Assembly: GCF_007474545.1 (NCBI RefSeq)
Contig: NZ_VKOG01000006.1
Location: 62,001 to 126,000, forward strand
Direction of reading: 5' to 3'
DNA length: 64,000 bases
Origin: Chryseobacterium binzhouense
GTDB lineage: Bacteria; Bacteroidota; Bacteroidia; Flavobacteriales; Weeksellaceae
Position 1 is the stretch's first letter, and each line of letters begins with the position of its first letter. The notes below the pieces were generated by a model, which was given only the letters and a program-made list of their open reading frames with translations, searched no databases and had not been told where the DNA came from. Shown here piece after piece: positions 37,843 to 59,031 of this stretch. The translations under genes and the position numbers were made by a program.

Positions 37843-37918
37843 CAAATTAATCTTTAAAAATTTATTAAATAAATACTATAACGCTAAAAGTCATTTTTTA
37901 GTTTATCATTAAAATCAT

Positions 37919-37988: not shown

Positions 37989-38813
37989 ATGTCTTATACA
38001 CCAGCTGCTGCAGACGTAGCAAAATTAAGAAACCAAACAGGTGCAGGTATGATGGACTGCAAGAAAGCTCTAGTTGAAGCAGAAGGAGATTTTGAAAAAG
38101 CAGTTGACATCCTTAGAAAAAAAGGTCAGAAAGTTGCTGCTAACAGAGCTGACAGAGAATCTGCAGAAGGAGCAGTAATCGCAAGAGTAAACGAAGATAA
38201 TACTTTAGGTACGATCATCTCTTTAAACTGTGAGACTGACTTTGTTGCTAAAAACGAAGCTTTCGTTGAATTGGCTTACGAATTGGCTGAAATGGCAATT
38301 TTTGCTGCAACTAAAGAAGAATTATTGGCAACAGATTTCCACGGAATGACTGTAGCTGAAAAATTAATTGAGCAGACAGGTGTTATCGGTGAGAAAATTG
38401 AAATCGGTGCATTTGAAAGAATTACAGGACCTTTCCTTGGAGCTTACATCCACGCTGGTAACAAAATTGCTGCCATCACTTCTCTTTCTGCAAAAGTAGA
38501 CGGAGCTGATGAGGCTGCAAAATCTGTTTCTATGCAGGTTGCTGCGATGAACCCAATCGCTCTTGATGAAACTCAGGTTTCTCAGGAAACAATTGACAAA
38601 GAATTGGAAATTGAAAGAGAACTATTAACTAAAGAAGGTAAGCCAGAAAATATTATTGATAATATTTTGAAAGGTAAAATGCAGAGATTCTACAAAGACA
38701 ACACTTTGGTACACCAATCTTTCATTAAAGATAACGCTATTTCTGTTGCAGACTACGTAAAATCTGTAAGCTCAGATCTTAAAGTAACAGGATTTATAAG
38801 AGTTAGCTTATAA
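37989..38813 (+). CDS. tsf: Elongation factor Ts
   Basis: The 274-residue protein is the nucleotide-exchange factor of EF-Tu. The UBA-like N-terminus has VAKLRNQTGAGMMDCKKALV, then AVDILRKKGQK. The core has CETDFVAKNEAFVELAYELA and VSMQVAAMNPIALD. The C-terminus is complete (DYVKSVSSDLKVTGFIRVSL). In most flavobacteria tsf directly follows rpsB on the same strand. Here rpsB lies about 19 kb away on the other strand, so the pair is broken. Confidence 0.96.
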   Translation: MSYTPAAADVAKLRNQTGAGMMDCKKALVEAEGDFEKAVDILRKKGQKVAANRADRESAEGAVIARVNEDNTLGTIISLNCETDFVAKNEAFVELAYELAEMAIFAATKEELLATDFHGMTVAEKLIEQTGVIGEKIEIGAFERITGPFLGAYIHAGNKIAAITSLSAKVDGADEAAKSVSMQVAAMNPIALDETQVSQETIDKELEIERELLTKEGKPENIIDNILKGKMQRFYKDNTLVHQSFIKDNAISVADYVKSVSSDLKVTGFIRVSL

Positions 38814-38861: not shown

Positions 38862-38983
38862 TTTTTATTTATGCTATATTTCACATAATATGAATAACAT
38901 AGCAATATTCATTCATTATTTATAATTTCAAAAATATTAACATAATGTTAAAAAAATAACGTAAAAATTTGATTATTAATACT

Positions 38984-38991
38984 TAAATTTG
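38984..38991 (+). promoter_or_regulatory. -7 element for the first T9SS array gene
   Basis: TAAATTTG ends 18 nt before the ATG. The TTG at 38969-38971 is only 12 nt away, so the -33 box is non-standard. Confidence 0.5.
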
Positions 38992-39009: not shown

Positions 39010-42000
39010 ATGAAAAGAGTTTTATTATTAATATGCACATTTTTATGTTTATTGTTTAATGCCCAGCTTGATACCGAGCACTGGTTTGCGCCAATGGCAT
39101 CAAAGGCAGGAAATAGCGGATTAGAAGGTTATCTTTACCTTTCAACCGACGAAACAGTTCCCTTTACAGTCCAGATATTCAACAACAATACTTTATATAC
39201 AAGTACTCAGATCAGCAAAGGAAATCCTGCGCAGATTATTATTCCAAACAATTTTCTGATTACCTCAAATCAGTTTGATCTTTTTACGCCCAATTCTATG
39301 GGACTGAATGTAAAAGGAACTAAAAGATTTTTTGCAAATTATAGATTTTCACTGCAAAATCACGCTGAAATCATCACTTCAAAAGGTTTGGCAGGACTCG
39401 GAACAACTTTTTTTGCAGGAACAGTTCCCATTACAGGAAGCGCAACTTATGTAAACTCTACAATCGGAGTTACCGCAACCGAAGATAATACAACTGTTGT
39501 AATATCAGGATATAATCCTAATGTAGTGTTTTCTGACGGCACATCTTCTCCAACCAAAACTTTCACATTAAACAAAGGACAATCTTATATTGTAGATGCA
39601 AGAAGTACAGACAGCCCTTTTAATCCTACCGGACTTGTAGGAGCAAAAATAGTATCTACAAAACCTATTTCGGTGACCAATGGTAATTTTAATGGAATTT
39701 ATACCAATCTTAATTTCAGCAATAATGATGTTCTGATGGATCAGGCTGTTCCTGTCAACAGATTGGGAAAAGATTTTATCATGGTGAAAGGAAACGGTAA
39801 TGTAGCTAATGAAATGGAAACGGCACTTATCATTGCCACAGAAGATAATACTCAAATTGCTTTCAACGGAGCCGGAACTGCAGTCACATTGAATGCGGGA
39901 CAATATTACATGGTTCCGACTGGTAATTACATTAATCAGGGAAGCGGAAATTATAACATGAATATTACTTCAAACAAAAATATTTATGTTTATCAATTGC
40001 TTGCCGGAATTATGGGCGGCGGATCTAATAACGAATTTGCAACAGGAGGAATGAATTTTATTCCGCCATTAAGCTGTTTCATGCCCAACAAAGTAGATGA
40101 AATCGGATTCATCAATATGATTGGAGGACAAGCTTTTAACACAAAACTGAATATTATTACCCAAACCGGAGCTATAGTTACTTTAAACGGAAATCCTATT
40201 GCTGCCAACAACGGACCTTATCCCGTAACAGGGAACCCTAACTGGGTGACCTATTCTGTACCGAATGTTTCCGGAATTATTTCTGTAAATTCTACCAAAT
40301 CTGTAACTGCAGGAATTGCAGCAGGAAGCGGTGCTGTCGGCTACGGTGGTTACTTTGCGGGGTTCTCGTCCGTTCCTGCAATTTCTAAAACAGGTGACTG
40401 TTATGCCGGCATACTTTTACAGGTAGATAATTCTTATGACTCTTACCAATGGTTTTTAAATGGAAATCCTATTCCGGGAGCGACTTCTTTCTCAATAAAC
40501 CCAGAACTTTACGGAGCAGGAAATTACACGTGTCAGATTACAAAAAACAATTGCGAAAGCAAGCTGACTGCAATTTATAATTACACATTATGTCCGCCAA
40601 TTACTACAACAACATATACAATCGGTTCTTGTAATACAAAAGTAATTACTCCTTCGTTTAGCAATTCAACTCAGAATATTGTTCCGTCGCTTACAGGAAT
40701 TATTTTGCAGCCAACTTCCGGTACAGCAACTGTAAATCCGGCAAACGGTCAGATTACCTATACTCCAAACTCAACTTTAACTAGTAATACAACAGATACT
40801 TTCATTTATTATATTCAGGGAAATGGTAATCCTTTTGATTTTGAATATTTTAAAATTATTATTAACACAGACGTTCTTCAGACCAATAATGCAAGTATGG
40901 TTTCTTGTGCCAATTCTGCAGGTAACGGAACATTTGATTTAACCACGGCTAATCTTACTACAAATTCAGGCGCATCGGTTGTATATTATACCAATTCTAA
41001 CCTGACAGGTCAGATCAACACTCCAAACAATTACACAGGTCCTGCAGGAACAATATATGCTAATATAACTTCTGCTTACGGATGTTCTAAACCCGCACAG
41101 ATTACATTGACAGTAAATCCGTTACCAAATATCAATACTTCCAATCTTAACGCAAATCTTTGTGATGATAATCTTGATGGAATTATTAATGTAAATTTCT
41201 CAACGATTACACCTCAAATCGTAACCAACTCAGGAAGTTTTAACGTAAGATATTATCTGAATCAAACAGACGCAAATGCCGGAAATAACAATACTCTTCC
41301 CAACAACTGGACGTATACTGCAGCTACAACAGTCTATGTAAGAGTCGACGGAATTAATACCAATTGTTCTCCTGCTTTTGGACAGATCAACTTTTCTGTA
41401 GGATCAAAAATATCTTTATCCACATTAGATTATTCCACGTTAGTTTGCGATACCAACTGGGACGGAACAGAAACCGTTAACTTAAATACTTATAAAAATA
41501 ATTTCACTACAGATCCTGCTGTTACATTGAACTTTTACAGCACTTTTGCTAATGCGCAAAATGCGGCCAACGCTATCAATTCAAATCAGATCATTGCTCC
41601 TTCTCAGGTGTTTTTTATTCGATTTCAGGCTTCAGGAAGCTGCCCTAATATAGCAAAGATTACCTTATCACTGGATCAGCTTTCAACATCCAATGCTAAC
41701 TTATCTGCTTGTGCCAATGCCAACGGAACAGCAAATTTTAATCTGACTACAGCTACTGTTACAGCAACTCCGGGAGCAACAGTTTTGTTCTTTTCAGATG
41801 CTTTGCTCACTGCTCCTATTGCAACGCCTACAAATTACAATTCTTCCGGGGGAATAGTTTATGCACAGGTGAGTTCAGGTTTCGGATGTACAAAAACAGC
41901 ACAGATCAATTTAGTCATCAATCCGTTACCTAATATCAATACAGCTAATTACAACGCTGTACTTTGCGATGATAATTTTGACGGAATAATCAATGTAAAT

Positions 42001-43167
42001 TTCTCAACAGTTTCACCTCAAATTGTTACCAATTCAGGAAGTTTTACTGTAAGATATTACCTGAACCAAACAGATGCAAATGCAGGAAACAACAATACAC
42101 TTCCTAATAACTGGACATATACTGCCAATACAACAGTTTATGTAAGAGTTGACGGAATCGGCACCAATTGTACTCCTGCTTTTGGGCAGATCAACTTTCA
42201 GATTGGAAACCGAATAACCTTATTGGCAACCAATGCCACTACAGATGTATGTGATAATGATCTGAATGGAACTCAAGCCGTTAATCTTAATGATTATAAA
42301 AATCTATTCAGTACAGATCCTTCCGTTGTATTAACATTTTACAATACTTTAGCCAATGCGCAGGCAGGTACAAATACCATTACTCCCAATCAAAACATCA
42401 GTTCTGTTTCAACATTCTACATCAGATTCACCAGCAATAATGGATGTCCAAATACAGCAGTTTTAACAGTTAATTTAAAATCTCCAAAGAAATCTGAGGT
42501 TCTAAAAAATCAGGTAGTTTGCGCAGATCAAAAAGCTTTACTGGATGCAGGAGCAGGCTTTACTTCTTATTCATGGAGCACAGGAGCAACAACGCAATCC
42601 ATCAGTGCAGGAGAAGGTGTTTATTTTGTAGATCTAGGATTTAATGGTTGCGTTTACAGACAAACAGTTACAGTAACCAATGCCCCACTACCTGTAGTAA
42701 CCAGCGTAACGGTTACAGGAAATACAGCAACGATTAACGTAACAGGAGGAACTCCTCCTTATCAATATTCATTAAATGGAATTGATTATCAAAGCTCTAA
42801 TGTTTTCACAGGATTGGTAAGAGGTCCTTATAAAGTGTATGTCATCGGGCGAGATGGATGTCAGCCGGTTACAAAAGATTTTTTACTATTAAATTTAATT
42901 AATACCATCACTCCTAATAATGACGGTAAGAATGATGTTTTAGATTACTCTGATCTTAAAATCAAAGATCAGGTAAGCATAGAAGTAGTTGACAGATATG
43001 GCGCTGCCGTTTATCAATCTTCAGGGAAAAATTATATATGGGACGGAAAATCGGGAGGACGCAACTTATCTACCGGAACTTATTGGTACATAATAAAATG
43101 GATTGAACCCGATACAAAATTGCCAGTTTCTTATTCAGGATGGCTTTTAATTAAGAATAGAGAATAA
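39010..43167 (+). CDS. Large secreted T9SS type B protein, array member 1
   Basis: The 1385-residue protein has a signal peptide (MKRVLLLICTFLCLLFNAQ) and then LDTEHWFAPMASKAGNSGLE. Residues 20 to about 450 resemble the IgGFc-binding protein N-terminal region (HAEIITSKGLAGLGTTFFAG, NNEFATGGMNFIPPLSCFMP, GYGGYFAGFSSVP). An Ig-like module (460-530) and a beta-rich module with TATVNPANGQITYTPN follow. Two tandem 268-residue repeats span about 622-1158. Next are a Cys-bearing module (NQVVCADQKALLDAGAGFTS), a SprB-like repeat (INVTGGTPPYQYSLNGIDYQ) and the type B sorting domain (1298-1385, NTITPNNDGKNDVLDYSDLK). It should cross the outer membrane by T9SS and act at the surface or outside. The ligand is unknown. 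Confidence 0.88.
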   Translation: MKRVLLLICTFLCLLFNAQLDTEHWFAPMASKAGNSGLEGYLYLSTDETVPFTVQIFNNNTLYTSTQISKGNPAQIIIPNNFLITSNQFDLFTPNSMGLNVKGTKRFFANYRFSLQNHAEIITSKGLAGLGTTFFAGTVPITGSATYVNSTIGVTATEDNTTVVISGYNPNVVFSDGTSSPTKTFTLNKGQSYIVDARSTDSPFNPTGLVGAKIVSTKPISVTNGNFNGIYTNLNFSNNDVLMDQAVPVNRLGKDFIMVKGNGNVANEMETALIIATEDNTQIAFNGAGTAVTLNAGQYYMVPTGNYINQGSGNYNMNITSNKNIYVYQLLAGIMGGGSNNEFATGGMNFIPPLSCFMPNKVDEIGFINMIGGQAFNTKLNIITQTGAIVTLNGNPIAANNGPYPVTGNPNWVTYSVPNVSGIISVNSTKSVTAGIAAGSGAVGYGGYFAGFSSVPAISKTGDCYAGILLQVDNSYDSYQWFLNGNPIPGATSFSINPELYGAGNYTCQITKNNCESKLTAIYNYTLCPPITTTTYTIGSCNTKVITPSFSNSTQNIVPSLTGIILQPTSGTATVNPANGQITYTPNSTLTSNTTDTFIYYIQGNGNPFDFEYFKIIINTDVLQTNNASMVSCANSAGNGTFDLTTANLTTNSGASVVYYTNSNLTGQINTPNNYTGPAGTIYANITSAYGCSKPAQITLTVNPLPNINTSNLNANLCDDNLDGIINVNFSTITPQIVTNSGSFNVRYYLNQTDANAGNNNTLPNNWTYTAATTVYVRVDGINTNCSPAFGQINFSVGSKISLSTLDYSTLVCDTNWDGTETVNLNTYKNNFTTDPAVTLNFYSTFANAQNAANAINSNQIIAPSQVFFIRFQASGSCPNIAKITLSLDQLSTSNANLSACANANGTANFNLTTATVTATPGATVLFFSDALLTAPIATPTNYNSSGGIVYAQVSSGFGCTKTAQINLVINPLPNINTANYNAVLCDDNFDGIINVNFSTVSPQIVTNSGSFTVRYYLNQTDANAGNNNTLPNNWTYTANTTVYVRVDGIGTNCTPAFGQINFQIGNRITLLATNATTDVCDNDLNGTQAVNLNDYKNLFSTDPSVVLTFYNTLANAQAGTNTITPNQNISSVSTFYIRFTSNNGCPNTAVLTVNLKSPKKSEVLKNQVVCADQKALLDAGAGFTSYSWSTGATTQSISAGEGVYFVDLGFNGCVYRQTVTVTNAPLPVVTSVTVTGNTATINVTGGTPPYQYSLNGIDYQSSNVFTGLVRGPYKVYVIGRDGCQPVTKDFLLLNLINTITPNNDGKNDVLDYSDLKIKDQVSIEVVDRYGAAVYQSSGKNYIWDGKSGGRNLSTGTYWYIIKWIEPDTKLPVSYSGWLLIKNRE
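40876..42484 (+). repeat. Tandem 804-bp internal duplication within array member 1
   Basis: Two in-frame copies (about 40876-41680 and 41680-42484, offset 804 bp) encode the same 268-residue module. Both contain NPLPNINT, LCDDN, DGIINVNFST, VTNSGSF, VRYYLNQTDANAGNNNTLPN and FGQINF. Synonymous changes separate the copies, so the duplication is not brand new. Such modules are also found once in array member 4. Confidence 0.88.
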
Positions 43168-43215
43168 TTTTTTCAATTTATTTATGATTTATTAAGAATA
43201 TATTAAATATTATAC

Positions 43216-43223
43216 TAATTTTG
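43216..43223 (+). promoter_or_regulatory. -7 element for array member 2
   Basis: TAATTTTG lies 23 nt before the ATG. The leader then reads ATCCTAATTCT (43229-43239), which is repeated before array member 3. Confidence 0.5.
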
Positions 43224-43246
43224 TAGAAATCCTAATTCTTTAACTT

Positions 43247-46200
43247 ATGAAAAGATTTCTACTCAGTTTAGTATTAATATTTTTGTCATTCAGTTCTCTC
43301 TTTGCCCAAAGAGATACCGAACACTGGATTGCACCCTACTATTACTCTACTTCTTACACACAGGCTCTGTATTTATCTACTGATTCTATTACGCCTTTTG
43401 ATGTAACAATTTACAGTAACAATGCTGTTTTGCCTGGTGGAGTTGTAACAATCAGTAAAGGTAACCCTGTTGTTTTTCAGGTGCCTAATACTTATATCGC
43501 AACCAACTCTGCATCAGAGGCATTCAATGTAATATCAAAAGGTTTGTATCTGAACGGATCTAAACCATTTTTCTGTACTATGAGAATGGTAAGTTCTACC
43601 ACACACGCAGAGATTGTGACCAGTAAAGGAAAGGCTGGAATTGGAAAATTATTTTATGTTGCTAACACCCCATCTACTGCAACATTCAACACATTCACAT
43701 CCGGGATTCTTGCTACAGAAAACAATACTGTGGTAACAGTTACGTGGAACGGAAGTATTACATTCATTGGAGCTCCTACAGGTCTTGGGAATACGCATAC
43801 TGTAACTTTGAATAAGGGTGAGTCTTTTATATTTGCCGGAAACACCACTGCAACTGCTCCGTTTATGGGAGCAAAGATTGTTTCTGACAAACCTATAACA
43901 CTTACAAATGGAAACGTAAATGGTAATTTCGGAGCCAGTACTGCTGCAGGATCTGATGCCATATTAGACCAATCTGTTCCTGTAGAAAGATTAGGAAGTA
44001 CTTTTGCAATGGTAAGAACAAGATCCAATACATCTGATTTGGAAGGAGCCATTGTAATTGCTACTGAAAATAACACTCAGGTTTTTCTAAACGGATCAGG
44101 AGTAGCTATAGCTACTTTAAACGAAGGACAATGGTACAGAATTTCAGGAGACAATTATTTACAGCAAGGAACCTCTGACCATTATAATATGTTGGTATCA
44201 ACATCTAAAAATGTATATTTATATCAACTTGTTTCTGTAAATAACAGCAGTGCAACCTGCGGTTTTAATTATATCCCGCCGTTAAATTGTTTTCTTCCAA
44301 GAAAAATTGATGAGATTCCGCTTATTAATGAAATGCCTCTGAATAATTCAAGCTCTACACCATCTGGAACATTAATTAAATTAAATATTCTTACTGAAGC
44401 TGGAGCTACAGTTTTAGTAAATAATGCTGCTCCAACTGCAGCGCAAGGACCTCACCCTCTTACGGGTAATACAGCTTGGGTAACCTACGGTATTGAAGGA
44501 GTGGCAGGAAATCTTGTTATTGAATCTACAAAAGCTGTTACTGCAGGTATTAACGGCGGCTACTCCACTTCAGGATATGGAGGTTATTTTGCAGGATTCT
44601 CTTCTATTCCTATCATTGCTAAACAAATAGGAGATTGTATTCCGGGAATTATATTAGAGGTAGATGACAGTTATGAAACTTATCAATGGTTTCTAAATAA
44701 TGCTCCAATTGCAGGTGCTACATCTCATACATATACTCCAACGGTAGCTGGTAATTATACGGTAAAAGTAACCATGGGAACATGCCCTCCGGTAACTACA
44801 CCTGTTTACAAGGTTTTCAGCTGTTTACAACAGACCACAAAAACGTTGTTCATTTGCGGAGCTAAAACTATTACTCCAACTTTCACCAATTCATCACAGG
44901 CATTACAGACAAACTCAGTACAAATTCTCACTCAGCCAACAAAAGGTACAGCAACTTTAAACCCAAATACTGGTGTTATTACTTACATTCCAAATCCTGG
45001 TAATCCTCCTGGTACAACGGATGTTATTGTATATAGATTCTGTGGAAATGCAACTGAATTTGTAGACTGTGAGCAAGTAACTTTAAACTTAAGCTTGGTC
45101 CCTTTTGTAGTGAACGACCGCACTATTTATGCTTGTCAATATGCAGGAAAAGGATATTTTAACCTTACAAGTGCTACGGTAACTGATGGCGTAGTACAGA
45201 CTACAAAGAAATTTTACCCCACTCTTGCAGATCTTAATGCAGGAACCAATCAGATAACTAACCCTACAAATTATTTCTCGGGAGCGGGATCTGTATATGT
45301 AAATGTAACTACTGTTGAAGGCTGCGTTGGTAATGCAAAAATTACACTAGCTTTCTATCCGACACCAGTTGTTAATGAAGCTACTCTTACAGAATGCTTT
45401 ATTCAAAATAATGAAACAAAAGGTAAGTTTAATTTAACCGCTGCAAATGTAACGGCAGAAAGTCCCGTAACTAAAAAATTCTACCCCACTTTCACAGATG
45501 CAAGCAATGGAACTAATGAAATTACAACTTTTTTAGACAACTATATTTCAGCAAATGGAGCTGTATATGTGAGAGTTTTCAACTCTAATGACTGTTATGC
45601 TATTGCAAAAATTAACCTTCAGGTTACTCCACCAAACAGATCTACCGTTTTAAAAAATCAATCCATCTGTATTGATGACAGAACTACTTTAGATGCAGGA
45701 CCTGGTTATCAGTCTTATCTATGGAGCAACGGAGCAACCACTCAGTCTATTCAGGGAGTTGGAGTTGGGGAGTACTGGGTTACACTTCAAAGCAACGGGT
45801 GTTACGTGACGCAGTATGTAAGCGTTAAAAAAGCAGAAGATCCGGTAATCACATCTATTGAAATTTCAAACAATACTGCTACCGTAATGGTGAATGGCGG
45901 AACTGCACCTTACAAATATTCTGTAGACGGAACCACCAATTGGCAGGACTCCAATGTATTTACTAATTTATCAAGAGGACAGCACACTTTCTTTGTAAAA
46001 GACTCGTTCGAATGTACACCAATTTCGGTGGAAATTACAATTCCAAACTTAGTAAATGCCATTACACCAAATGGTGACAGAGTAAATGATTATGTTGATT
46101 ATAAAGAATTAGCTTATAAAGAAAATCTTACGTTTACAGTATATGACAGATATGGTAACCTTATTTTCAAAGGCGACAGGTTTAATAATTACAGATGGGA

Positions 46201-46327
46201 CGGAACTCATCAAGACAAAAAAATCCTTACAGGTACATATTGGTATCATATTAATTGGAATGAACCAAATGCTGCTAAGACCCCAATAAAATACACGGGT
46301 TGGATTTTAGTGAAAAACAGAGAATAG
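43247..46327 (+). CDS. Large secreted T9SS type B protein, array member 2
   Basis: The 1026-residue protein has the signal peptide ending FSSLFAQ, then RDTEHWIAPYYYSTSYTQAL. The N-terminal half resembles member 3 more than members 1 and 4 (TTHAEIVTSKGKAGIGK, NSSATCGFNYIPPLNCFLPR, GYGGYFAGFSSIPIIAKQ). Next are an Ig-like module (ETYQWFLNNAPIAGATSH), a beta-rich module with GTATLNPNTGVITYIPN, two shorter Ig-like units, a module with LKNQSICIDDRTTLDAGPGY, and a SprB-like segment. The sorting domain is at about 937-1026 (NAITPNGDRVNDYVDYKELA). No large internal duplication. Outer-membrane export by T9SS is expected. Confidence 0.88.
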   Translation: MKRFLLSLVLIFLSFSSLFAQRDTEHWIAPYYYSTSYTQALYLSTDSITPFDVTIYSNNAVLPGGVVTISKGNPVVFQVPNTYIATNSASEAFNVISKGLYLNGSKPFFCTMRMVSSTTHAEIVTSKGKAGIGKLFYVANTPSTATFNTFTSGILATENNTVVTVTWNGSITFIGAPTGLGNTHTVTLNKGESFIFAGNTTATAPFMGAKIVSDKPITLTNGNVNGNFGASTAAGSDAILDQSVPVERLGSTFAMVRTRSNTSDLEGAIVIATENNTQVFLNGSGVAIATLNEGQWYRISGDNYLQQGTSDHYNMLVSTSKNVYLYQLVSVNNSSATCGFNYIPPLNCFLPRKIDEIPLINEMPLNNSSSTPSGTLIKLNILTEAGATVLVNNAAPTAAQGPHPLTGNTAWVTYGIEGVAGNLVIESTKAVTAGINGGYSTSGYGGYFAGFSSIPIIAKQIGDCIPGIILEVDDSYETYQWFLNNAPIAGATSHTYTPTVAGNYTVKVTMGTCPPVTTPVYKVFSCLQQTTKTLFICGAKTITPTFTNSSQALQTNSVQILTQPTKGTATLNPNTGVITYIPNPGNPPGTTDVIVYRFCGNATEFVDCEQVTLNLSLVPFVVNDRTIYACQYAGKGYFNLTSATVTDGVVQTTKKFYPTLADLNAGTNQITNPTNYFSGAGSVYVNVTTVEGCVGNAKITLAFYPTPVVNEATLTECFIQNNETKGKFNLTAANVTAESPVTKKFYPTFTDASNGTNEITTFLDNYISANGAVYVRVFNSNDCYAIAKINLQVTPPNRSTVLKNQSICIDDRTTLDAGPGYQSYLWSNGATTQSIQGVGVGEYWVTLQSNGCYVTQYVSVKKAEDPVITSIEISNNTATVMVNGGTAPYKYSVDGTTNWQDSNVFTNLSRGQHTFFVKDSFECTPISVEITIPNLVNAITPNGDRVNDYVDYKELAYKENLTFTVYDRYGNLIFKGDRFNNYRWDGTHQDKKILTGTYWYHINWNEPNAAKTPIKYTGWILVKNRE

Positions 46328-46350
46328 ACAGACAATAATTAAAATTAAAA

Positions 46351-46376
46351 AAACCACAATATAACAATTGTGGTTT
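46351..46376 (+). terminator. Terminator after array member 2
   Basis: AAACCACAAT and ATTGTGGTTT form a 10-bp stem with a 6-nt loop and a T run. Confidence 0.85.
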
Positions 46377-46411
46377 TTTTTTGATTGAGACCAAATATTT
46401 ACACACTTATT

Positions 46412-46444
46412 TTGTAATATATCTAAATTTTTCTTTTATTTTTG
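46412..46444 (+). promoter_or_regulatory. Promoter of array member 3
   Basis: TTG at 46412-46414 and TATTTTTG at 46437-46444 are 22 nt apart. The leader repeats the TCCTAATTCT of array member 2 (46451-46460) just before the ATG. Confidence 0.62.
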
Positions 46445-46465
46445 CAATAATCCTAATTCTACATT

Positions 46466-49303
46466 ATGAAAAAATTTCTACTTATTTTTCTACTTTTTAT
46501 TTTAGGGGGCAATTTAACATTCGCTCAGCGAGATACAGATCACTGGATTGCACCCTTCTATGAATCTACATCCTATTCAGGAAGAATGCTGTATCTTTCA
46601 ACAGATTCAGTACAACCATTCGATGTTACCATATACAGTAACAATATCGTTCGGGGAACAGTGACCATCAGTAAAGGATCACCTCAGACCTTTACCGTTT
46701 CTCAGGCATTTATCAGCGCATCTAGTACAAGTGAAGCATTTACAGTAATCAACAAAGGGTTATATTTAAAAGGCGAAAAGCCATTTTACTGTACTCTGAG
46801 AATTGCGAGCAGTACTACCCACGCTGAAATTGTTACAAGTAAAGGGAAAGCTGGTATTGGAAAAGAGTTTTTTGTGGCTACAACTCCTTCACCTTTCAAC
46901 AGCTCAAGCAACAATTTCACAGCGGGCGTTTTAGCGACAGAAGATAATACCAATGTTACAGTTACATGGAGCCCTACTGCAAATATTACATTTATTGGCG
47001 CAACTCCGGCAACTAATACGCATACCTTTACTTTAAATAAAGGTCAGTCATTTATTTTTGCAGGTTTAGGAAATCCTGCCTCCAACATGTCTCTTTTTAC
47101 TGGGGCAAAAATTGTTTCAGATAAACCAATTACCTTAACTAATGGAAACATTAACGGTAATTTCGGAACAGGATCATCCAGTGGTTCTGATTCTATTCTG
47201 GATCAGTCTGTACCTTTAGACAGACTTGGAAATACTTTCGCAATGGTAAGAACCAGATCTGCTACGGCTAATGATATTGAAGGAGGATTGATTATTGCTA
47301 CAGAGAACGGAACTCAAGTTTATTTAAACGGATCTGCAACTCCTGCCGCTACTTTAGATCAGGGTGAATCATACAGAATATCCGGAAGTAATTATATTAA
47401 TCAGGGTTCTGGTCACAGCAATATGTTTATCAGCACAACCAAAAATGTATACCTATACCAATTTGTATCTGTAAATAACAGCAACGCTACCTGTGGTTTC
47501 AATTATATTCCGCCATTAAACTGTTTTTTACCCCGAAAAATTGATGAAATTGGAAAAATTAATGAAATGCCTGCCGGAACAGGAGGTATAAGTACAACTC
47601 CATCAGGAACAATTATTAAATTGAATATTCTTACTGAAGCAGGTGCAACAGTAACGGTAAATAATGTTGCTCCTACAGCAGCACAAGGTCCTTTTCCTGT
47701 AACCGGAAATACCAACTGGGTAACCTACAGTCTGGAAGGAGTTACAGGAAATGTAACTGTTGTATCTGATAAAGCAGTTACTGCAGGAATCAACGGAGGA
47801 TTCAGTACCGCAGGGTATGGCGGATATTTTGCAGGCTTCTCATCAATTCCTTTAATTGCAAAACAAACCGGAGACTGTATACCGGGATTGGTTCTTGAAG
47901 TGGATGACAGCTACGACACTTATCAATGGTTTAGAAATGACATCCCTATTCCGGGAGCCAATAGCAACTCATATACACCTACACAATCGGGCAACTATAC
48001 CGTAAGAATTACTGTAGGATCATGTTTGCCTGCTACAACACCCGTATATAAAGTATTCACTTGTTTAGAAGAAACAACACAGACAAAAACAGTTTGTGAA
48101 GGTTATCTGAATATCGTACCAGAATTTACAACATCATCGCAGACATTTGTTCCAAGTACAGTACAAATTGTAACGCCTCCTGCTAATGGAACAGCATTAG
48201 TAAATTCTACCACAGGAGTTATATCTTACACCCCAAATTTTGGTTTTGCAGGTAATGATACTATTGTATACAAATTCTGCGGAAACGACCCTGAATTTGT
48301 GGATTGCGAGCAAATCACCCTTACTCTGACAGTAAGTGAAAGTCCTGTTGTAAACGAAGCTACTTTAAGAGTATGTTTCCTTGAAGATAATGTTGCTACG
48401 GGATTATTTAATCTAACTCAGGCAAATGTTACCATCCAGCCAGGAGTTACCAAAAAATATTACCCTTCTTTAACTGACGCCAACAACCAAACCAACGAAA
48501 TTACCACTCCTGATAGTTACGTTGCTCCAAATGGAGTAGTGTATGTAAGAGTAAGCAATGCTAACGGATGTTACCGTGTTGCGAAAGTAACTTTAATTGT
48601 ATTTCCGCCAACACAATCTACTGTTTTAGAAGATAAAGTAATTTGTATGGAAACCAGAACTACTTTGGATGCAGGACCTGGCTTCAATGGCTACGAATGG
48701 AGCACAGGAGCAACAACACAGACCATCACAAATGTTGGAGTAGGAACATATTGGGTAAAACTAAAAACCGGAGACTGTGTAACCAAGCAAACGGTAAAAG
48801 TATATGCTTCTGAGCAGCCTGTTATTTCCAGCATTGATATATCAACTAATAATATCACTGTGAATGTTACCGGAGGTGTTGCTCCTTATGAATATTCTAT
48901 CGACAATACAAACTGGCAAGCGTCTAATGTATTTACAGATTTACCGAGAGGAGATGTGAAAGTATACGTAAGAGATACATTCAAATGTGTTCCAATTGAA
49001 GTTAATATTACGATTCCAAATATTGTTAATGTTATTACACCAAACTCAGACGGATTAAACGATGTCTTAGACTACTCTTCACTGGCAAACAAACCAAATC
49101 TTGTGTTTGATATTTTTGACAGATACGGAAACAGAATCCATCAAGGTAATAAAGAAAACGGATACAAATGGGATGGGACTACAAATGGCAGAAAGAGAGT
49201 TTCTACAGGAAATTACTGGTACAGCATCAGCTGGAACGAAAATAACAAAAACCAGACTCCAATTAAATTCCAGGGCTGGATTTTAGTAAAAAACAGAGAA
49301 TAA
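46466..49303 (+). CDS. Large secreted T9SS type B protein, array member 3
   Basis: The 945-residue protein has the signal peptide ending GGNLTFAQ, then RDTDHWIAPFYESTSYSGRM. It is the shortest array member and is closest to member 2 in the N-terminal part (HAEIVTSKGKAGIGKEFF, NSNATCGFNYIPPLNCFLPR). It keeps the Ig-like modules (DTYQWFRNDIPIPGANSN), the Cys-bearing LEDKVICMETRTTLDAGPGF, and a SprB-like repeat (ITVNVTGGVAPYEYSIDNTN). The sorting domain is at about 855-945 (NVITPNSDGLNDVLDYSSLA). It is preceded by its own promoter and followed by a terminator. Confidence 0.88.
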   Translation: MKKFLLIFLLFILGGNLTFAQRDTDHWIAPFYESTSYSGRMLYLSTDSVQPFDVTIYSNNIVRGTVTISKGSPQTFTVSQAFISASSTSEAFTVINKGLYLKGEKPFYCTLRIASSTTHAEIVTSKGKAGIGKEFFVATTPSPFNSSSNNFTAGVLATEDNTNVTVTWSPTANITFIGATPATNTHTFTLNKGQSFIFAGLGNPASNMSLFTGAKIVSDKPITLTNGNINGNFGTGSSSGSDSILDQSVPLDRLGNTFAMVRTRSATANDIEGGLIIATENGTQVYLNGSATPAATLDQGESYRISGSNYINQGSGHSNMFISTTKNVYLYQFVSVNNSNATCGFNYIPPLNCFLPRKIDEIGKINEMPAGTGGISTTPSGTIIKLNILTEAGATVTVNNVAPTAAQGPFPVTGNTNWVTYSLEGVTGNVTVVSDKAVTAGINGGFSTAGYGGYFAGFSSIPLIAKQTGDCIPGLVLEVDDSYDTYQWFRNDIPIPGANSNSYTPTQSGNYTVRITVGSCLPATTPVYKVFTCLEETTQTKTVCEGYLNIVPEFTTSSQTFVPSTVQIVTPPANGTALVNSTTGVISYTPNFGFAGNDTIVYKFCGNDPEFVDCEQITLTLTVSESPVVNEATLRVCFLEDNVATGLFNLTQANVTIQPGVTKKYYPSLTDANNQTNEITTPDSYVAPNGVVYVRVSNANGCYRVAKVTLIVFPPTQSTVLEDKVICMETRTTLDAGPGFNGYEWSTGATTQTITNVGVGTYWVKLKTGDCVTKQTVKVYASEQPVISSIDISTNNITVNVTGGVAPYEYSIDNTNWQASNVFTDLPRGDVKVYVRDTFKCVPIEVNITIPNIVNVITPNSDGLNDVLDYSSLANKPNLVFDIFDRYGNRIHQGNKENGYKWDGTTNGRKRVSTGNYWYSISWNENNKNQTPIKFQGWILVKNRE

Positions 49304-49327
49304 TCAGCTTAAAATTTTTATTCACAT

Positions 49328-49355
49328 AAAAACCGCAATATTTTTTGCGGTTTTT
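49328..49355 (+). terminator. Terminator after array member 3
   Basis: AAAAACCGCAA and TTGCGGTTTTT form a perfect 11-bp stem with a 6-nt loop. Confidence 0.88.
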
Positions 49356-49391
49356 TTTATTATTTTTAAAAACAATACTATATTTTATTGT

Positions 49392-49399
49392 TAAATTTG
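49392..49399 (+). promoter_or_regulatory. -7 element for array member 4
   Basis: TAAATTTG ends 19 nt before the ATG, after the previous terminator. No -33 TTG is seen. Confidence 0.5.
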
Positions 49400-49418
49400 T
49401 GATAAACTCAAATCCAAA

Positions 49419-52400
49419 ATGAAGAAAATTCTATCTTTTTTCCTTATTTTTTATATATTCTCTACAACCCTTGCCCAGCTGGATAGAGAACATTGGTTTG
49501 CGCCTATGATAGATAGAACAGGAAATCCAAATCCATATCAGAAATTATATCTGTCTACCAACCGGACCACTCCCTTTCCGGTAAGTATCTACAATAATAA
49601 TGTATTAATTGGAACGGTAACAATCAGTAAAACGAATCCGCAAAGATTTGATGTTCTGAGAGATTACATTATAACAACCCAGCAATCAGACTTATTTACG
49701 CCAGGTACCAAGGGACTTTATCTTCAGGCAGATTTTCCTTTTTATGCTAATCTGAGGTTTTCAGTTTTTAATCATGCTGAAATTATCACGTCGAAAGGTA
49801 CAGCATCAAAGGGCAATACATTTTACGCAGCATCTGCTCCAATTACTGTCAGCAATGGAATTCTCAATTTTATGACCAGTATACTTGCAACAGAAGATAA
49901 TACTAGTGTTACTATTTCAGGTTATAAACCAACCGTACAGTTTTCCAACGGAACAACCGGTCTTACCAATCCTACTTTAACTTTCACATTAAATAAAGGG
50001 CAATCCTATATTTTGGACGGAATTGGTAATATCACAGGAAACTTTGACGGATTTATCGGTGCCAAGATAGTTGCTACAAAACCGGTCAATGTCACCAACG
50101 GAAATTTCAATGGTCAATATGCAGGAAATCAGCCTTTGAGTTCAGATATTTTAATGGATCAATCAATACCGGTGACACAGCTTGGAAATACTTTTGCCCT
50201 GGTAAAAGGTAACGGTAACATCGGAAGTAACATGGAAGGTGCTCTGGTTATTGCAACCGAAGACAATACAACCATCTTTGTAAACAATGAGACCTTGCCT
50301 ATTGCTACAATCAATACAGGACAATATTTCGTTATTCCAGATTCTAAATACATCCTTCAGGGTAACGGACACTATAATATGTATATTGTAAGCAATAAAA
50401 ATGCTTATGTTTATCAAATGCTTGCAGGAGCCTCTACTACAGGAAATGAAGTGGCAACCGGCGGATTTAATTTTATTCCCGGACTCAACTGCTATCTTCC
50501 AAAACAAATTGATGAGCTGGGATTCATTAATGAAAATTTTGTTCATACTAATGTGAATCCTTCGGGAATACTTAACATACCGACAAAACTAAATTTAATC
50601 ACAGAACGAGGTGCCGTAGTAAATGTAAACGGAGTTCCCCCACCTGCAGGAACAGGACCTTTCAATATGACAGGAACAAACAATTGGGTAACTTATGGAA
50701 TCCCAAACACTACAGGAACAATCACCATTACTTCCACCAAAGCCATTACGGCAGGAATCAATGCAGGAAGTGATGCAGTAGGATATGGCGGATTTTTTGC
50801 CGGATTCCCTACTCAACCAGTTATTCTAAAATCAGGTGGTGACTGCGTTCCGGGAATTGTCCTTACTGTAGATCCTGTTATTTACGAAACTTATCAGTGG
50901 TACCGAAATGGCATTATAATTCCTGGCGCCACCTCTCCTACCTTCACTCCAACACAATCGGGTTTCTATACATGCTCAGTAACGATGGGAAGCTGTGCTC
51001 CGCTCGTTACAGTACAATATAAGGTGCTAAACTGTTTAAAACAAACGACTGAGACTTTAAATATATGTGATGTAAAAACTATACCGCCTACTTTTAGTAC
51101 TTCTACACAGACTCCGGTGCCTTCAACCGTTGCTATTACTACGCCGCCTTCGTTAGGAACTGCTACAATAAATACAACAACAGGAATTATTACCTATAAT
51201 GCAACAAACCCTTCTGCCGGAGGAACAGATACCTTTACTTACACATTCTGCGGTAACGATCCCGATTTTCCGGATTGTGAATCTATAACAGTTATCATCA
51301 ATATACAGCCGGTAACAGTTACCAATACAACACTAACATCATGCAATGTCAATAGTGTAGGAATATTTGACCTGACTACGGCAAACGTAACTGTGAATAC
51401 TCCCGTTGTGAAAACTTACTATACGAGTTTGCTGGCGGCACAAACAGAAAATGCTGCCGGAGAAATTACCAATCCGACCATTCATTCCGCTCCAGCAGGA
51501 ACCTTCGTTTATGTTGTTGTTAAAAATCCTACGGGATGCAAAAACATCGCTCAGATTACTTTAAATTTATTTCCGTTAGCTGTTGTAAACGCAGCAAACA
51601 TAGGAATTCAATGTGATGACAACTTAGACGGAGTGGTAAATGTTGTATTATCAAATATTACTCAGCAAATCCTTAACAATCCGACCTATTTTACAACTGT
51701 AAGATATTATGCTCAGCTTTCAGATGCCAATCTTGGTAATAATAACACACTTCCAAATAACTGGAGTTTCAGTGCCAATACAACAATATATATTCGCGTA
51801 GACTCTCCCGATGGATGTGCACCTGTCATTCAACCTGTAAATTTTACGGTTGGAGCTAAGCTCAGCTTGCTGACAAACTTGCTGGTAACAACCTATTGTG
51901 ATGATGATCTGGATGGCAGCAAACAAGTTAATCTTTCTCAGTTCATCAGTCAATTTACGACAGATCCGCAGGTTTCTGTAAGCTATCACGCTACTTTAGC
52001 AGATGCACAAAATGATGTCTCGCCTATTAATGGAACTGTTACTCTCACCGGAACACATACTTATTTCATCAGATTTGAAAAAGCAGGAATTTGTCCCGAT
52101 GTGGCAACATTAAGAATCACTCTTAAAACGCCTAAAAAATCTGATATACTCACAGACCAGATCATTTGTGCAAAAACACAGACAACATTAGATGCCGGTC
52201 CCGGATTTACGGCTTACATGTGGAGTACAGGAGCAACAACTCAGTCCATATCAAATGTATCAGCAGGTAATTATTGGGTAGAGCTCAGTTTCGACGGCTG
52301 TGTTTATAAACAGTTTGTTACAGTTGCAGAATCTATATTGCCCGTGATTACTTCTATTGAAATTAACGGATCTACCGTAACAATAGGCGTGAGCGGAGGA

Positions 52401-52838
52401 AATCCTGCCTATGAATATTCTCTGGATGGCTTCAACTGGCAATCTTCAAATGTTTTCACAAATGTAACCAGAGGAACATATACCGTTTATGTAAGAGATT
52501 CCCTGAAATGTGAAGTTGTAAAAGAAGAATTTGTGATCATTGACCTGATTAATACTATTACACCAAATGATGACGGCAGAAATGATGTAATCAATTATTC
52601 TTCGTTAATGAATAAGAAAAATCTGGAGTTCAGAATTTTTGACCGTTACGGAGCGGAAGTTTTCCGAGGTACACCCACTAATAAGTTTACCTGGGACGGA
52701 ACAATGAAAGGAAGACCTGTTCCTACAGCAACCTATTGGTATTTTATAAGCTGGACAGAACTTGGAGGCGTAACGACCGTAAAATATTCAAGCTGGCTTT
52801 TGGTAAAGCATAGAAACAATAGTCTTTGGGACAGATAA
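49419..52838 (+). CDS. Large secreted T9SS type B protein, array member 4
   Basis: The 1139-residue protein has the signal peptide ending STTLAQ, then LDREHWFAPMIDRTGNPNPY. It is closer to member 1 than to 2 and 3 (HAEIITSKGTASKGNTFYAA, NEVATGGFNFIPGLNCYLPK, GYGGFFAGFPTQPVI). It has one copy of the module duplicated in member 1 (GIQCDDNLDGVVNVVLSNIT). Next come DILTDQIICAKTQTTLDAGP, a SprB-like segment (VTIGVSGGNPAYEYSLDGFN) and a sorting domain from about 1044 (NTITPNDDGRNDVINYSSLM). It ends in KHRNNSLWDR, a longer tail than the NRE of the others. Confidence 0.88.
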   Translation: MKKILSFFLIFYIFSTTLAQLDREHWFAPMIDRTGNPNPYQKLYLSTNRTTPFPVSIYNNNVLIGTVTISKTNPQRFDVLRDYIITTQQSDLFTPGTKGLYLQADFPFYANLRFSVFNHAEIITSKGTASKGNTFYAASAPITVSNGILNFMTSILATEDNTSVTISGYKPTVQFSNGTTGLTNPTLTFTLNKGQSYILDGIGNITGNFDGFIGAKIVATKPVNVTNGNFNGQYAGNQPLSSDILMDQSIPVTQLGNTFALVKGNGNIGSNMEGALVIATEDNTTIFVNNETLPIATINTGQYFVIPDSKYILQGNGHYNMYIVSNKNAYVYQMLAGASTTGNEVATGGFNFIPGLNCYLPKQIDELGFINENFVHTNVNPSGILNIPTKLNLITERGAVVNVNGVPPPAGTGPFNMTGTNNWVTYGIPNTTGTITITSTKAITAGINAGSDAVGYGGFFAGFPTQPVILKSGGDCVPGIVLTVDPVIYETYQWYRNGIIIPGATSPTFTPTQSGFYTCSVTMGSCAPLVTVQYKVLNCLKQTTETLNICDVKTIPPTFSTSTQTPVPSTVAITTPPSLGTATINTTTGIITYNATNPSAGGTDTFTYTFCGNDPDFPDCESITVIINIQPVTVTNTTLTSCNVNSVGIFDLTTANVTVNTPVVKTYYTSLLAAQTENAAGEITNPTIHSAPAGTFVYVVVKNPTGCKNIAQITLNLFPLAVVNAANIGIQCDDNLDGVVNVVLSNITQQILNNPTYFTTVRYYAQLSDANLGNNNTLPNNWSFSANTTIYIRVDSPDGCAPVIQPVNFTVGAKLSLLTNLLVTTYCDDDLDGSKQVNLSQFISQFTTDPQVSVSYHATLADAQNDVSPINGTVTLTGTHTYFIRFEKAGICPDVATLRITLKTPKKSDILTDQIICAKTQTTLDAGPGFTAYMWSTGATTQSISNVSAGNYWVELSFDGCVYKQFVTVAESILPVITSIEINGSTVTIGVSGGNPAYEYSLDGFNWQSSNVFTNVTRGTYTVYVRDSLKCEVVKEEFVIIDLINTITPNDDGRNDVINYSSLMNKKNLEFRIFDRYGAEVFRGTPTNKFTWDGTMKGRPVPTATYWYFISWTELGGVTTVKYSSWLLVKHRNNSLWDR

Positions 52839-52947: not shown

Positions 52948-53736
52948 ATGAATAAACTCATTACAATTTTATTACTTGTATTGGTAAGCAACTTTCAAGG
53001 GCAGATTTTTACTGGAGAGGTCTTTTTAAGAGACAATTCGGTACTGTACCTTAATCAGGTTTATGTTACCAATATTAATAAGCACAAAACTGTGCTTACA
53101 AGCTATAACGGAGATTTTAAGCTGTATGCTGAGCCGGGTGACGTAATCAGATTTACTTCTATTGTTACCGAGAGGAAAGATATCACACTTACTCCACAAA
53201 TGCTGAATTCAAAAAACCTGATAGAATTAAAGGTGGCATATCATGACATTCAGGAAGTGGTCATCAGCAGATTCAGACCTACAGGAAATTTAAGATATGA
53301 TGTAAATTCCATCAGAAAAGAAGATAAAGCTCTTGCCATTAAAAAAGCAATCGGTTTACCTGAACCCAAAGGTGACGGTACTCCTCCTGAACTTCCGGTT
53401 GCGGGATTTCGTGATGGTGGTCTTACCTTAAGTATTGAAAGTATTTTTGATGTCCTGTCCGGAGAGAGAAAGAAAAAACAGCGCCTTGCAGCTTATGAGA
53501 GAATGCAAAATTCTGTCACCCAGATTAAAAATTATTTAGGAAAAGACTATTTTACAAGATTTAAGATTCCCGAAAATTTAATTGATAATTTTCTGCAATT
53601 TGTCTATACCTCAGAAAATATTGAAGTATATGTACAGACCGGAAATTTTGAAGCTGTAAAGCTTCCAATAGAAAAATATCTGCCTATCTATCAGCGCCGG
53701 CTTAAAAACTCACATTTACAGGAAGTTATCAATTAA
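52948..53736 (+). CDS. Secreted protein with carboxypeptidase-regulatory-like domain
   Basis: The 262-residue protein has a signal peptide ending FQGQ and then a short beta domain: IFTGEVFLRDNSVLYLNQVY, then KTVLTSYNGDFKLYAEPGDV followed by IRFTS. That pattern matches carboxypeptidase D regulatory-like (CarbopepD_reg_2) domains. The C-terminal part is helical and charged (GERKKKQRLAAYERMQNSVT and DYFTRFKIPENLIDNFLQFV). It has no type B sorting domain. In Bacteroidota such proteins are common at the envelope. Its function is unknown; its place just after the T9SS array may be incidental. Confidence 0.72.
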   Translation: MNKLITILLLVLVSNFQGQIFTGEVFLRDNSVLYLNQVYVTNINKHKTVLTSYNGDFKLYAEPGDVIRFTSIVTERKDITLTPQMLNSKNLIELKVAYHDIQEVVISRFRPTGNLRYDVNSIRKEDKALAIKKAIGLPEPKGDGTPPELPVAGFRDGGLTLSIESIFDVLSGERKKKQRLAAYERMQNSVTQIKNYLGKDYFTRFKIPENLIDNFLQFVYTSENIEVYVQTGNFEAVKLPIEKYLPIYQRRLKNSHLQEVIN

Positions 53737-53898: not shown

Positions 53899-54681
53899 AT
53901 GAAAAAGTTAGTTTTACTTTTTACAAGTCTCGTTTTTGTATCTTATTCTGCACAACGGAAAAATAAGGATTACAGCGATATTCTTAAAAGCAAAAACATT
54001 TACGAAATCAACGCATTTCTGAGAGATGCCCATCCTGATGATCCTAAAAGATCTGTACTCAAGCCAAGAGTAATGGCAATGATGAAGGATTATATCAAAG
54101 ATGCACCGCCCGGCGACAGAAAGGTAAAAGAAATGCAGGAAAATCTTGCAAGACTTAAAAGAGGACCTTCTACCAAGATTTCTTTTGAAGAATTTAACGC
54201 TATTATCAAGCAGAAACAAATTCAAAAATATCAACAGCAGCTTCAGGTAGGACAAGCGGCTATAGTCTATACACCCAGTACTCCTCAAAATGTGTACATT
54301 GCAGCTTCGGCATCAACAAAAGCTTCTGCCGCACCAATTCCCGATACAGAAGCATCAGAGTTTAATATGCTTATGACTGAAAATCCTGTTGAGCATAAAA
54401 ATAAAACTGTAAAAATTCTCAATTCATTATTTGACAATGATCCCAATGCAAAAGAATGTATTGTTTTAATTCAGAACAAATCAGACTGTAACATCATTGT
54501 AAGAATTGAGGGAATAGGACATACCAAATACAGACTTCCCGTTCCGGCTAACGGAGATAACTCAATCGTGGTAGAAAAGGGTGACTATCTTTTATCCAGC
54601 CTCGTTTGCGGCGCTCAGTATGCATCTCAGAAAACCATTCAGAAACCTTTGATGATTGCTTTAGGAAACTCTTCCAAATAA
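53899..54681 (+). CDS. Small secreted protein, member 2 of a three-gene paralogous family
   Basis: The 260-residue protein has a signal peptide ending FVSYSAQ. The N-terminal module is DILKSKNIYEINAFLRDAHP followed by DDPKRSVLKPRVMAMM. The C-terminal module is NPVEHKNKTVKILNSLFDND with ECIVLIQNKSDCNIIVRIEG, then NSIVVEKGDYLLSSLVCGAQ. The motif AHPxDPKRxxLK and the two Cys (SDCN and SLVCG) are shared with the gene at 56923. A Gln-rich region (QKQIQKYQQQLQVGQ) joins the modules. Function unknown. The IS element lies just 18 nt after its stop. Confidence 0.75.
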   Translation: MKKLVLLFTSLVFVSYSAQRKNKDYSDILKSKNIYEINAFLRDAHPDDPKRSVLKPRVMAMMKDYIKDAPPGDRKVKEMQENLARLKRGPSTKISFEEFNAIIKQKQIQKYQQQLQVGQAAIVYTPSTPQNVYIAASASTKASAAPIPDTEASEFNMLMTENPVEHKNKTVKILNSLFDNDPNAKECIVLIQNKSDCNIIVRIEGIGHTKYRLPVPANGDNSIVVEKGDYLLSSLVCGAQYASQKTIQKPLMIALGNSSK

Positions 54682-56906: not shown

Positions 56907-56922
56907 CCAAAAAACACAATTG

Positions 56923-58453: not shown

Positions 58454-58559
58454 GTTTTCTGTTTTTGTTAGTTTACTTTCCGTCTTTTAAACAATCAACA
58501 ACTTCTTTAGATGGGAGAAGCGTTTGGATGCTAAACGTAACGGGCAATTTTAAATTTAG

Positions 58560-58635
58560 ATTAATAGATTTCAGATATAAGATACCAGACAAGAAAAGGT
58601 CTGAAATCTGACATCTCCAATCTGATGTCTGAAAA
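58560..58635. repeat. Degenerate TCTGAAATCTGA-type repeat in the rpsB-rpsI gap
   Basis: The gap holds several related units: GATTTCAGAT, GGTCTGAAATCTGACATCTC and AATCTGATGTCTGAAA. Part can fold (GACATC with GATGTC). Similar strings are common in flavobacterial intergenic regions. The function is unknown and the boundaries are approximate. Confidence 0.5.
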
Positions 58636-58638
58636 AAA

Positions 58639-59025: not shown

Positions 59026-59031
59026 AATTAA

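Follow-up and report, generated by a model that had tools for sequence, protein, structure and literature searches.

An old, ordered array of predicted type IX secretion system type B surface proteins in Chryseobacterium binzhouense

Type B substrates of the type IX secretion system (T9SS) are usually discussed as cognate pairs, each substrate with its own shuttle. Proteins with a type B C-terminal domain (CTD) bind PorP-like proteins as anchors (PMC9143113). Flavobacterium johnsoniae encodes 12 type B proteins and 10 that are PorP-like (PMC9143113, PMC12618676), and three of its orphan type B CTDs (>44% identical) share one orphan shuttle, Fjoh_1677 (PMC12618676). Here we describe an array of four consecutive type B genes in a stretch of 64,000 nt from Chryseobacterium binzhouense (contig NZ_VKOG01000006.1, positions 62,001 to 126,000; hereafter the window), which is part of a 3.61-Mb genome in 16 contigs, 99.99% complete. 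We conclude that the array is genuine, old and ordered, and that it encodes predicted type B surface proteins of the T9SS. The four proteins share their CTD family, at scores above the cut-offs, with F. johnsoniae SprB and with the orphans Fjoh_1123, Fjoh_1720 and Fjoh_4934. As with these orphans, no shuttle gene is adjacent, and the array CTDs are 44–61% identical to each other, which is in the range of the orphans that share one shuttle. Unlike the F. johnsoniae proteins, the members of the array are four ordered paralogues with a head of the Pfam family PF17517, and only one PorP was found for the 12 type B proteins of the genome.

Between positions 39010 and 52838 the + strand holds four complete open reading frames (ORFs): member 1 (39010–43167, 1385 aa), member 2 (43247–46327, 1026 aa), member 3 (46466–49303, 945 aa) and member 4 (49419–52838, 1139 aa). 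An earlier reading of the DNA, made from its letters and ORFs (the sequence-only reading), had described a tandem paralogous array with a shared outer plan, and this is borne out by the ORFs, domain matches, module counts and pairwise identities. Its 'IgGFc-binding-like' N-terminus is found in all four members, which match PF17517 (IgGFc_binding) above the cut-off with 123–139 bits (E 1.4e-35 to 2.6e-40); a search of the genome with PF17517 gave no matches beyond the four. The heads, i.e. the mature N-termini with the PF17517 region and its flanks, lie at 39064–40395 in member 1 (E 2.6e-40, residues 129–435), 43307–44623 in member 2 (E 1.8e-37, residues 132–436), 46526–47863 in member 3 (E 2.5e-38, residues 131–443) and 49476–50837 in member 4. 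All members start, as judged by eye, like signal peptides, with MKR or MKK, a hydrophobic core and an end in ..AQ, the Gln of which is invariant in 105 aligned heads (selected for having the HW motif described below).

The C-termini are equally uniform. Both CHU_C (PF13585) and TIGR04131 match every one of them above curated cut-offs, the latter with 57.5–63.4 bits against a cut-off of 35 bits, and the type B sorting domain named in the sequence-only reading is thus confirmed at 42892–43152 (member 1; CHU_C E 8.1e-17, TIGR04131 E 1.5e-16), 46049–46312 (member 2), 49022–49288 (member 3) and 52542–52799 (member 4). Two other domain names fared less well. A SprB-like repeat, claimed for all members, is listed for member 3 only and below the Pfam gathering score (22 versus 28 bits). 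The Ig-like modules appear in Pfam as Ig_2 in member 4 and Big_9 in member 3, both below the cut-off, although the model of member 3 does show strings of beta-strands there.

The head motifs read LDTEHWFAPM, RDTEHWIAPY, RDTDHWIAPF and LDREHWFAPM in members 1 to 4, so that the A-B-B-A arrangement noted earlier is correct for the window. The motif is not diagnostic in relatives, HWF standing in place of HWI in 62 of the 155 B-side rows of a head tree (FastTree; 313 of 333 family members, the 20 without the HW motif pattern, some of them cut, being left out). A and B as two subtypes agree with the motifs; however, the heads of members 1 and 4 are only 54% identical, compared with 71.8% for members 2 and 3, and belong to different clades. 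A is thus not a single close subtype, and we call the two classes A1 and A4. The A1 clade (73 rows, support 100) holds 62 Chryseobacterium-group rows, 54 of them first and eight second in their arrays, and 11 rows from other genera. The B side (155 rows, support 90) has a 112-row core with support 100 that contains both B genes of the window. The best-fit clade for A4, the 'last in array' class, has 85 rows and a support of only 55; it comprises 68 of the 76 last-position genes of the Chryseobacterium group, one other gene of the group and 16 genes from other genera, while the eight last-position genes outside it are B-like and come from cut, rearranged or separate loci. Since both the A1 and the A4 clade include rows from outside Chryseobacterium and its close kin, the split between these classes looks older than the genus. 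A-B-B-A therefore reads as a long-kept order of distinct paralogues and not as a recent mirror image. Recent gene conversion between members was considered and rejected, the longest exact DNA words that they share being only 12–21 bases long.

Between head and tail the proteins carry a stalk of modules whose number differs, as claimed, between members. We delimited 12 modules of 80–93 aa in the window, with a cysteine near each end of every one (by reading of the alignment), and used them as a profile. With this profile, built from the window's own modules, six modules are counted in member 1 (40876–42480), two in member 2 (45110–45631), one in member 3 (48350–48607) and three, in the order alpha-beta-gamma, in member 4 (51312–52127). 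The six modules of member 1 form two successive alpha-beta-gamma triplets, whose middle (beta) copies are 86% identical. Counted by head clade over uncut Chryseobacterium-group rows, the A4 proteins have three modules in 69 of 69 cases; the A1 proteins (n = 62) have three in 38, four in 2, five in 7 and six in 15; the B-side proteins (n = 146) have one in 111 and two in 35. The ranges of the classes barely overlap, and only that of A4 is fixed; A4-clade proteins of other genera have from 2 to 9 modules.

On the B side (155 rows) the head tree requires at least 19 changes of module number, a count that errors in the tree would inflate, compared with a mean of 37 and a minimum of 32 in 200 shuffles; B stalks therefore appear to have grown, shrunk or been swapped many times. 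These changes from one module to two or back may reflect recombination of heads and stalks within the array. A fixed stalk length in each of two B classes does not hold: the labels B2 and B3, taken from best BLAST hits of whole proteins, themselves track module number (two modules are found in 42 of the 44 proteins labelled B2, one module in all 111 labelled B3).

The neighbourhood of the array recurs through Chryseobacterium. Relative loci were collected by their similarity to member 2, the 80 best of 129 being kept, and the counts of gene order thus lean to genomes with B genes, while the genome copy counts given below are unaffected. The gene for elongation factor Ts, tsf, is in view in 67 loci (the window, Chryseobacterium and close kin), and in 62 of them the right-hand neighbour is visible as well. 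In all 62, the window included, the order is A1 (0–2 copies), B (1–3) and A4 (one copy), ORFs without a match to any window gene being disregarded. With Z for A4, the pattern is ABBZ in 32 loci (including the window), ABZ in nine, BZ in six, ABBBZ in five, AABBZ and BBZ in three each, and AABBBZ and BBBZ in two each. The left neighbour, tsf (37989–38813, + strand; PF00889, E 3.2e-57), holds the same position in 62 of 62 loci. The right neighbour is a conserved gene of 262 aa (52948–53736, + strand), the N-terminal 110 residues of which resemble BamP (42 bits, with an NCBIfam cut-off of 230). One of the five loci with tsf but no visible right-hand gene (L053) is visibly rearranged. The genome collections overlap, as two loci (L060 and L141) have an identical first-member head. 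Broken copies occur in relatives: a stop interrupts one A1-like gene (L138, G141), and one B2-like gene is in three pieces (L067).

In other genera of the family a member of the array directly follows tsf in 15 of 20 loci (by eye, in a listing that omits unmatched ORFs shorter than 180 aa). PF17517 is present in 118 of 119 genomes of the genus, with 2–11 matches per genome where present, and in 87 of 148 genomes of the family (18 of 33 genera). Within the order it occurs in 56 of 196 genomes, of which 31 lie outside the family, 23 of these with a single match. The nearest named relative found is Chryseobacterium echinoideorum, in which member 2 is 96% identical.

The sequence-only reading took the array for a diversifying family of surface adhesins; rapid diversification might, for example, serve in evasion of immunity or phages. 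Copy number and architecture do turn over between species, compared at one genome per species: B copies range from one to three in the 62 loci, PF17517 counts from 2 to 11 in the 118 genomes, A1 stalks from three to six modules and B stalks from one to two. The repeated switching of B stalks, the duplicated A1 triplet and the apparent exchange of tails with other proteins (see below) also speak for diversification. Selection for diversity at the sequence level, however, was not seen. In one species pair (against C. echinoideorum; Nei–Gojobori method, own script) dN/dS is 0.068, 0.047, 0.047 and 0.051 for members 1 to 4, which is within the range of the neighbouring genes (gltX 0.059, accA 0.012, tsf 0.040, trmB 0.032, the 262-aa gene 0.060, DUF6759-type genes 0.048–0.085). 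Codons 300–400 of member 1 have a raised non-synonymous fraction of 0.087, which is far below the synonymous value of 0.57. Diversification is further opposed by the order fixed in 62 of 62 loci and by the conservation of the A4 head. Two devices for variation were looked for and rejected: tandem-repeat slippage, as no tandem-repeat array is reported in the four genes, and invertible promoters, of which there is no clear case and only one imperfect AT-rich hairpin, at member 1. On balance we regard rapid diversification as quite unlikely. The hairpin is an inverted repeat with 40-nt arms at 38948–38987 and 39020–39059, 78% complementary, that spans the promoter-like box and the start of member 1; it is found in C. 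echinoideorum (L035) and not in Chryseobacterium balustinum (L036), and it may be due to chance in AT-rich DNA.

Which part of a member is conserved depends on its class. Among 70 A4 proteins, the median identity to the window is 82.4% for the head, 60.0% for the stalk and 75.8% for the CTD, the head being the most conserved part; among 53 first-position A1 proteins the order is head (70.6%), Ig and Big part (77.8%) and CTD (79.3%). The conservation of the A4 head is the opposite of what a diversifying binding face should display, and the A1 pattern is neutral in this respect. The A4 figures also bear on another explanation, in which the proteins form a homotypic or structural coat, with heads that bind each other or a shared envelope polymer, in place of external ligands, and with stalk lengths that set layers. 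The well-conserved A4 head, the three modules kept in all A4 rows of the Chryseobacterium group and the retention of the family in nearly every genome of the genus, as expected of a housekeeping surface component, all fit a coat. Against it stand a copy number that varies between 2 and 11, B and A1 stalks that change length and the low place of S-layer chains, which have only ranks 30, 34 and 41 among the 50 whole-chain structure matches listed, amid generic Ig arrays. We hold the coat to be an unlikely explanation.

Export by the type B route is very likely, and is the part of the proposed mechanism in which we have the highest confidence. In addition to the four CTDs, the genome encodes T9SS machinery, namely SprA (SprA_N, 510 bits), GldJ (486 bits) and PorP (176 bits). 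Two models found one PorP/SprF protein in the genome, as compared with 12 type B proteins. Its gene (C11:222340–223254; L150:9505–10473) stands, by reading, beside rluD-like and PASTA-like genes, with no type B gene among its neighbours. This imbalance is typical of the genus: among 60 genomes of the genus, a single PorP exceeds the cut-off in 58, none does so in one that is 87% complete, and four do so in G058; the same 60 genomes have 9–21 type B matches each. The PorP is of equal size in nearly all sampled genomes. In G058 (L155–L157) each of the three extra PorPs stands beside a large protein with a near-identical C-terminus; two of these large proteins are of about 2060 aa, and two are also listed as type B. 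Since the extra PorPs of G058 display such PorP–substrate pairs, pairs would be seen elsewhere if present. The extra PorPs look like a recent duplication.

By analogy with the F. johnsoniae orphan shuttle and with PorP-like anchors, the single PorP would carry and anchor the proteins of the array, which we consider probable. What the proteins would do once displayed is a further question, on which SprF gives a clue: its C-terminal CxC is needed for sustained movement on the gliding track and not for surface display of SprB (PMC12635249). All 18 copies of the orphan PorP examined (that of this genome and 17 others) have a single Cys, at residue 15, which by reading lies within the signal peptide, and an SprF-type CxC tail was not found in any of the 18, in a comparison without the F. 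johnsoniae SprF sequence as a control. Because the only shuttle found lacks the CxC tail that disulfide-links SprF to the gliding track, static display is expected, and we lean towards static anchoring, with somewhat less assurance than towards the shared carrier.

Several observations weigh against this account. No porP/sprF-like gene adjoins the array, which would be the usual sign of pairing, and the only PorP found is on another contig. The 12 CTDs of the genome are as low as 29% identical, and therefore one shuttle may not serve all of them. Nor do the three extra PorPs of G058 have a CxC within their final 40 residues. Finally, foci with an orphan CTD moved in 3% of F. johnsoniae cells (PMC12618676). 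The last point is one of those that would favor mobile gliding adhesins of the SprB kind, running on the gliding track, an explanation that could also claim the type B CTD, the SprB-like tail and the presence of GldJ. Given a sole shuttle that has no SprF-type CxC and an array with no PorP/SprF gene beside it, we consider gliding adhesins very unlikely.

The tails of the array are shared with proteins that have other heads. The genome has eight further type B proteins, all of which match the last 330 residues of the array proteins and none of which matches the array heads at E 1e-3. The tail of member 3 shares 69% identity over 317 residues with that of an other-headed protein (C16:20652), compared with 46–52% for the tails of members 1 and 4 and 58% for that of member 2 (last ∼240 residues). 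The tail of member 2 is 60% identical to that of C16:13748 (L152:5737–7989), a protein whose head is legume-lectin-like (PF03388, E 1.5e-16) and whose gene sits in a second cluster of three type B genes. In a tree of 52 tails, the B tails group with tails from contigs C16 and C11 (94/89, not starred), and a tree constrained to a single clade of all array tails is only just rejected (p 0.043), in the presence of long branches. Heads and tails thus seem, with modest support, to have been recombined between proteins.

For the head itself no full-length relative of solved structure appeared among the matches listed. In the predicted model, the mature chain of member 3 takes the form of a row of modules rich in beta-strands (mean pLDDT 90.2, pTM 0.62), and the A4 head modelled alone reaches pLDDT 94.9 and pTM 0.93. 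Foldseek gave no full-length match of the A4 head among the 50 PDB matches listed; the best by E-value (3.7e-6) has a probability of 0.28 and a TM of 0.10, and the sole high-probability matches among those listed are to 1nc7, covering ∼120 columns. A predicted structure of FirrV-1-C4 from Feldmannia irregularis virus a covers most of the length of the head (probability 1.00, TM 0.52/0.46) and is the only one to do so among the 50 viral matches listed; the identity is 8%, and both structures are predictions. A sequence search of solved structures with member 3 alone gave nothing, and an alignment-based search gave 19 weak matches, the best to a phage decoration protein (E 0.078) and none to the head; the alignments used for the structure work contained 103 and 105 sequences, from 121 sampled out of 310 eligible. 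A fourfold internal repeat of the head was considered and rejected, as repeats 2 and 3 clearly match (96% probability) and the other five pairs do not. The best PDB match of the whole member 3 model is GhpA (9flp, E 2.5e-17), the grappling-hook protein of Aureispira and likewise a bacterial surface protein; with a TM of 0.14, 12% identity and no sequence match, we take this resemblance to lie probably between Ig-like stalks and not between heads.

The name of PF17517 comes from an animal protein, FCGBP, whose N-terminal domain belongs to the family. Array heads match the Pfam model; unlike animal FCGBP, the array proteins end in a T9SS tail, and a profile scan of the four proteins found no animal-mucin domain at E 0.01. 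'IgGFc-binding' is a family name and not evidence of IgG binding. That the proteins bind IgG or other host proteins is suggested by the name and by the PF17517 matches in four of four members; against it, the family occurs in 118 of 119 genomes of a largely environmental genus and in other genera, the head has no sequence match in the PDB, and the matches to Fc receptors are weak (E 0.4 or worse, below the phage decoration protein) and fall in the Ig module after the head. We consider such binding extremely improbable. Literature searches pairing IgGFc-binding or PF17517 with type IX secretion, Flavobacterium or Bacteroidetes, judged by titles and, for the broader searches, from part of the results, gave no paper on this array; passages of PMC9950754, on tandem spreading genes, have no bearing on it.

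Promoter-like boxes precede all four genes. We scanned 100 bases upstream of the genes, in Chryseobacterium-group loci with tsf in view, for TAnnTTTG, which we take to be the Bacteroidota −7 element, and obtained expectations from single-base shuffles. The box is present in 65 of 66 A4-like upstream regions (7.4 expected), 91 of 99 B3-like (10.5 expected), 29 of 30 B2-like (3.1 expected) and 40 of 60 A1-like (3.6 expected), nearly always 21–35 bases before the start. In the window it lies on the + strand at 38984–38991, 43216–43223, 46437–46444 and 49392–49399 for members 1 to 4. Terminator-like hairpins stand between members 2 and 3 (46347–46380; the stem is listed on the − strand, and the + strand likewise has a run of T after it), between members 3 and 4 (49328–49355, + strand) and after tsf; the terminator scan found no hairpin between members 1 and 2. 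The picture suggests that each member may be transcribed separately. It does no more than suggest this, because terminator-like sites across the region are not in excess (11 found versus 9.2 expected in shuffles) and because 20 of the 60 A1-like genes lack the box. A scan for sigma-70 type promoters was uninformative (70 found versus 58.4 expected).

In the window the gene order around the array is gltX, accA, a DUF6759-like gene on the opposite strand, tsf, members 1 to 4, the 262-aa gene, a DUF6759 gene, a transposase-like ORF, trmB and a third DUF6759-like gene, followed by rpsB, rpsI and rplM on the other strand (gltX, accA, trmB, the transposase and the ribosomal genes being named by reading and not by profile match). 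The three DUF6759-type genes that flank the array, lie at 37150–37845 (−), 53899–54681 (+) and 56920–57651 (+). The middle one matches PF20545; the other two, named by likeness in reading, are found in the same surroundings in relatives. The transposase-like ORF (54709–56049, −), between the DUF6759 gene and trmB, has no match among the relative loci listed. The genes rpsB and tsf are commonly adjacent in bacteria. Here tsf is set apart from rpsB–rpsI–rplM (57689–59487), which run in the opposite direction, with the array between them, and the same is seen in relatives with both visible.

Taken as a whole, the evidence from sequences makes statically anchored, adhesin-like surface proteins our preferred explanation, one that we favor by a little more than even judgment. 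At the sequence level each protein combines a start like a signal peptide (by eye), a conserved head rich in beta-strands, a stalk of Ig-like modules, a tail of Ig and SprB type and the type B CTD. Under the preferred explanation, Sec would move the four proteins to the periplasm and the SprA translocon would export them; the only PorP/SprF-family shuttle found would take up their CTDs and stay bound as the outer-membrane anchor, so that display would be mostly static, without helical movement. The conserved head, carried on six, two, one or three modules, would contact a conserved partner, which may be a glycan of a surface or matrix or another cell, and with genes transcribed separately the mix on display could be tuned. 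Adhesion as the role is, by itself, only mildly favored. A more specific combination is tentative, and rather doubtful when all its parts are required jointly: a single orphan PorP that carries and anchors all type B proteins of a Chryseobacterium genome, and an array that acts as a 'height ladder', with one conserved head family of experimentally unsolved fold on graded stalks of one or two (B), three (A4) and three to six (A1) modules, separately transcribed rungs, and tails exchanged with other-headed proteins such as the lectin-like one.

Proteins of this kind are already known; what is new lies in graded stalks in a fixed order, a setting with one shuttle, a head of unsolved structure and the promoter-like boxes. 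The array is a warning that tandem surface-protein arrays are not always under diversifying selection. One detectable shuttle for 9–21 substrates offers a clean test of how one carrier recognizes many CTDs, and one head family on stalks of different length offers a natural series for asking whether reach matters in bacterial adhesion.

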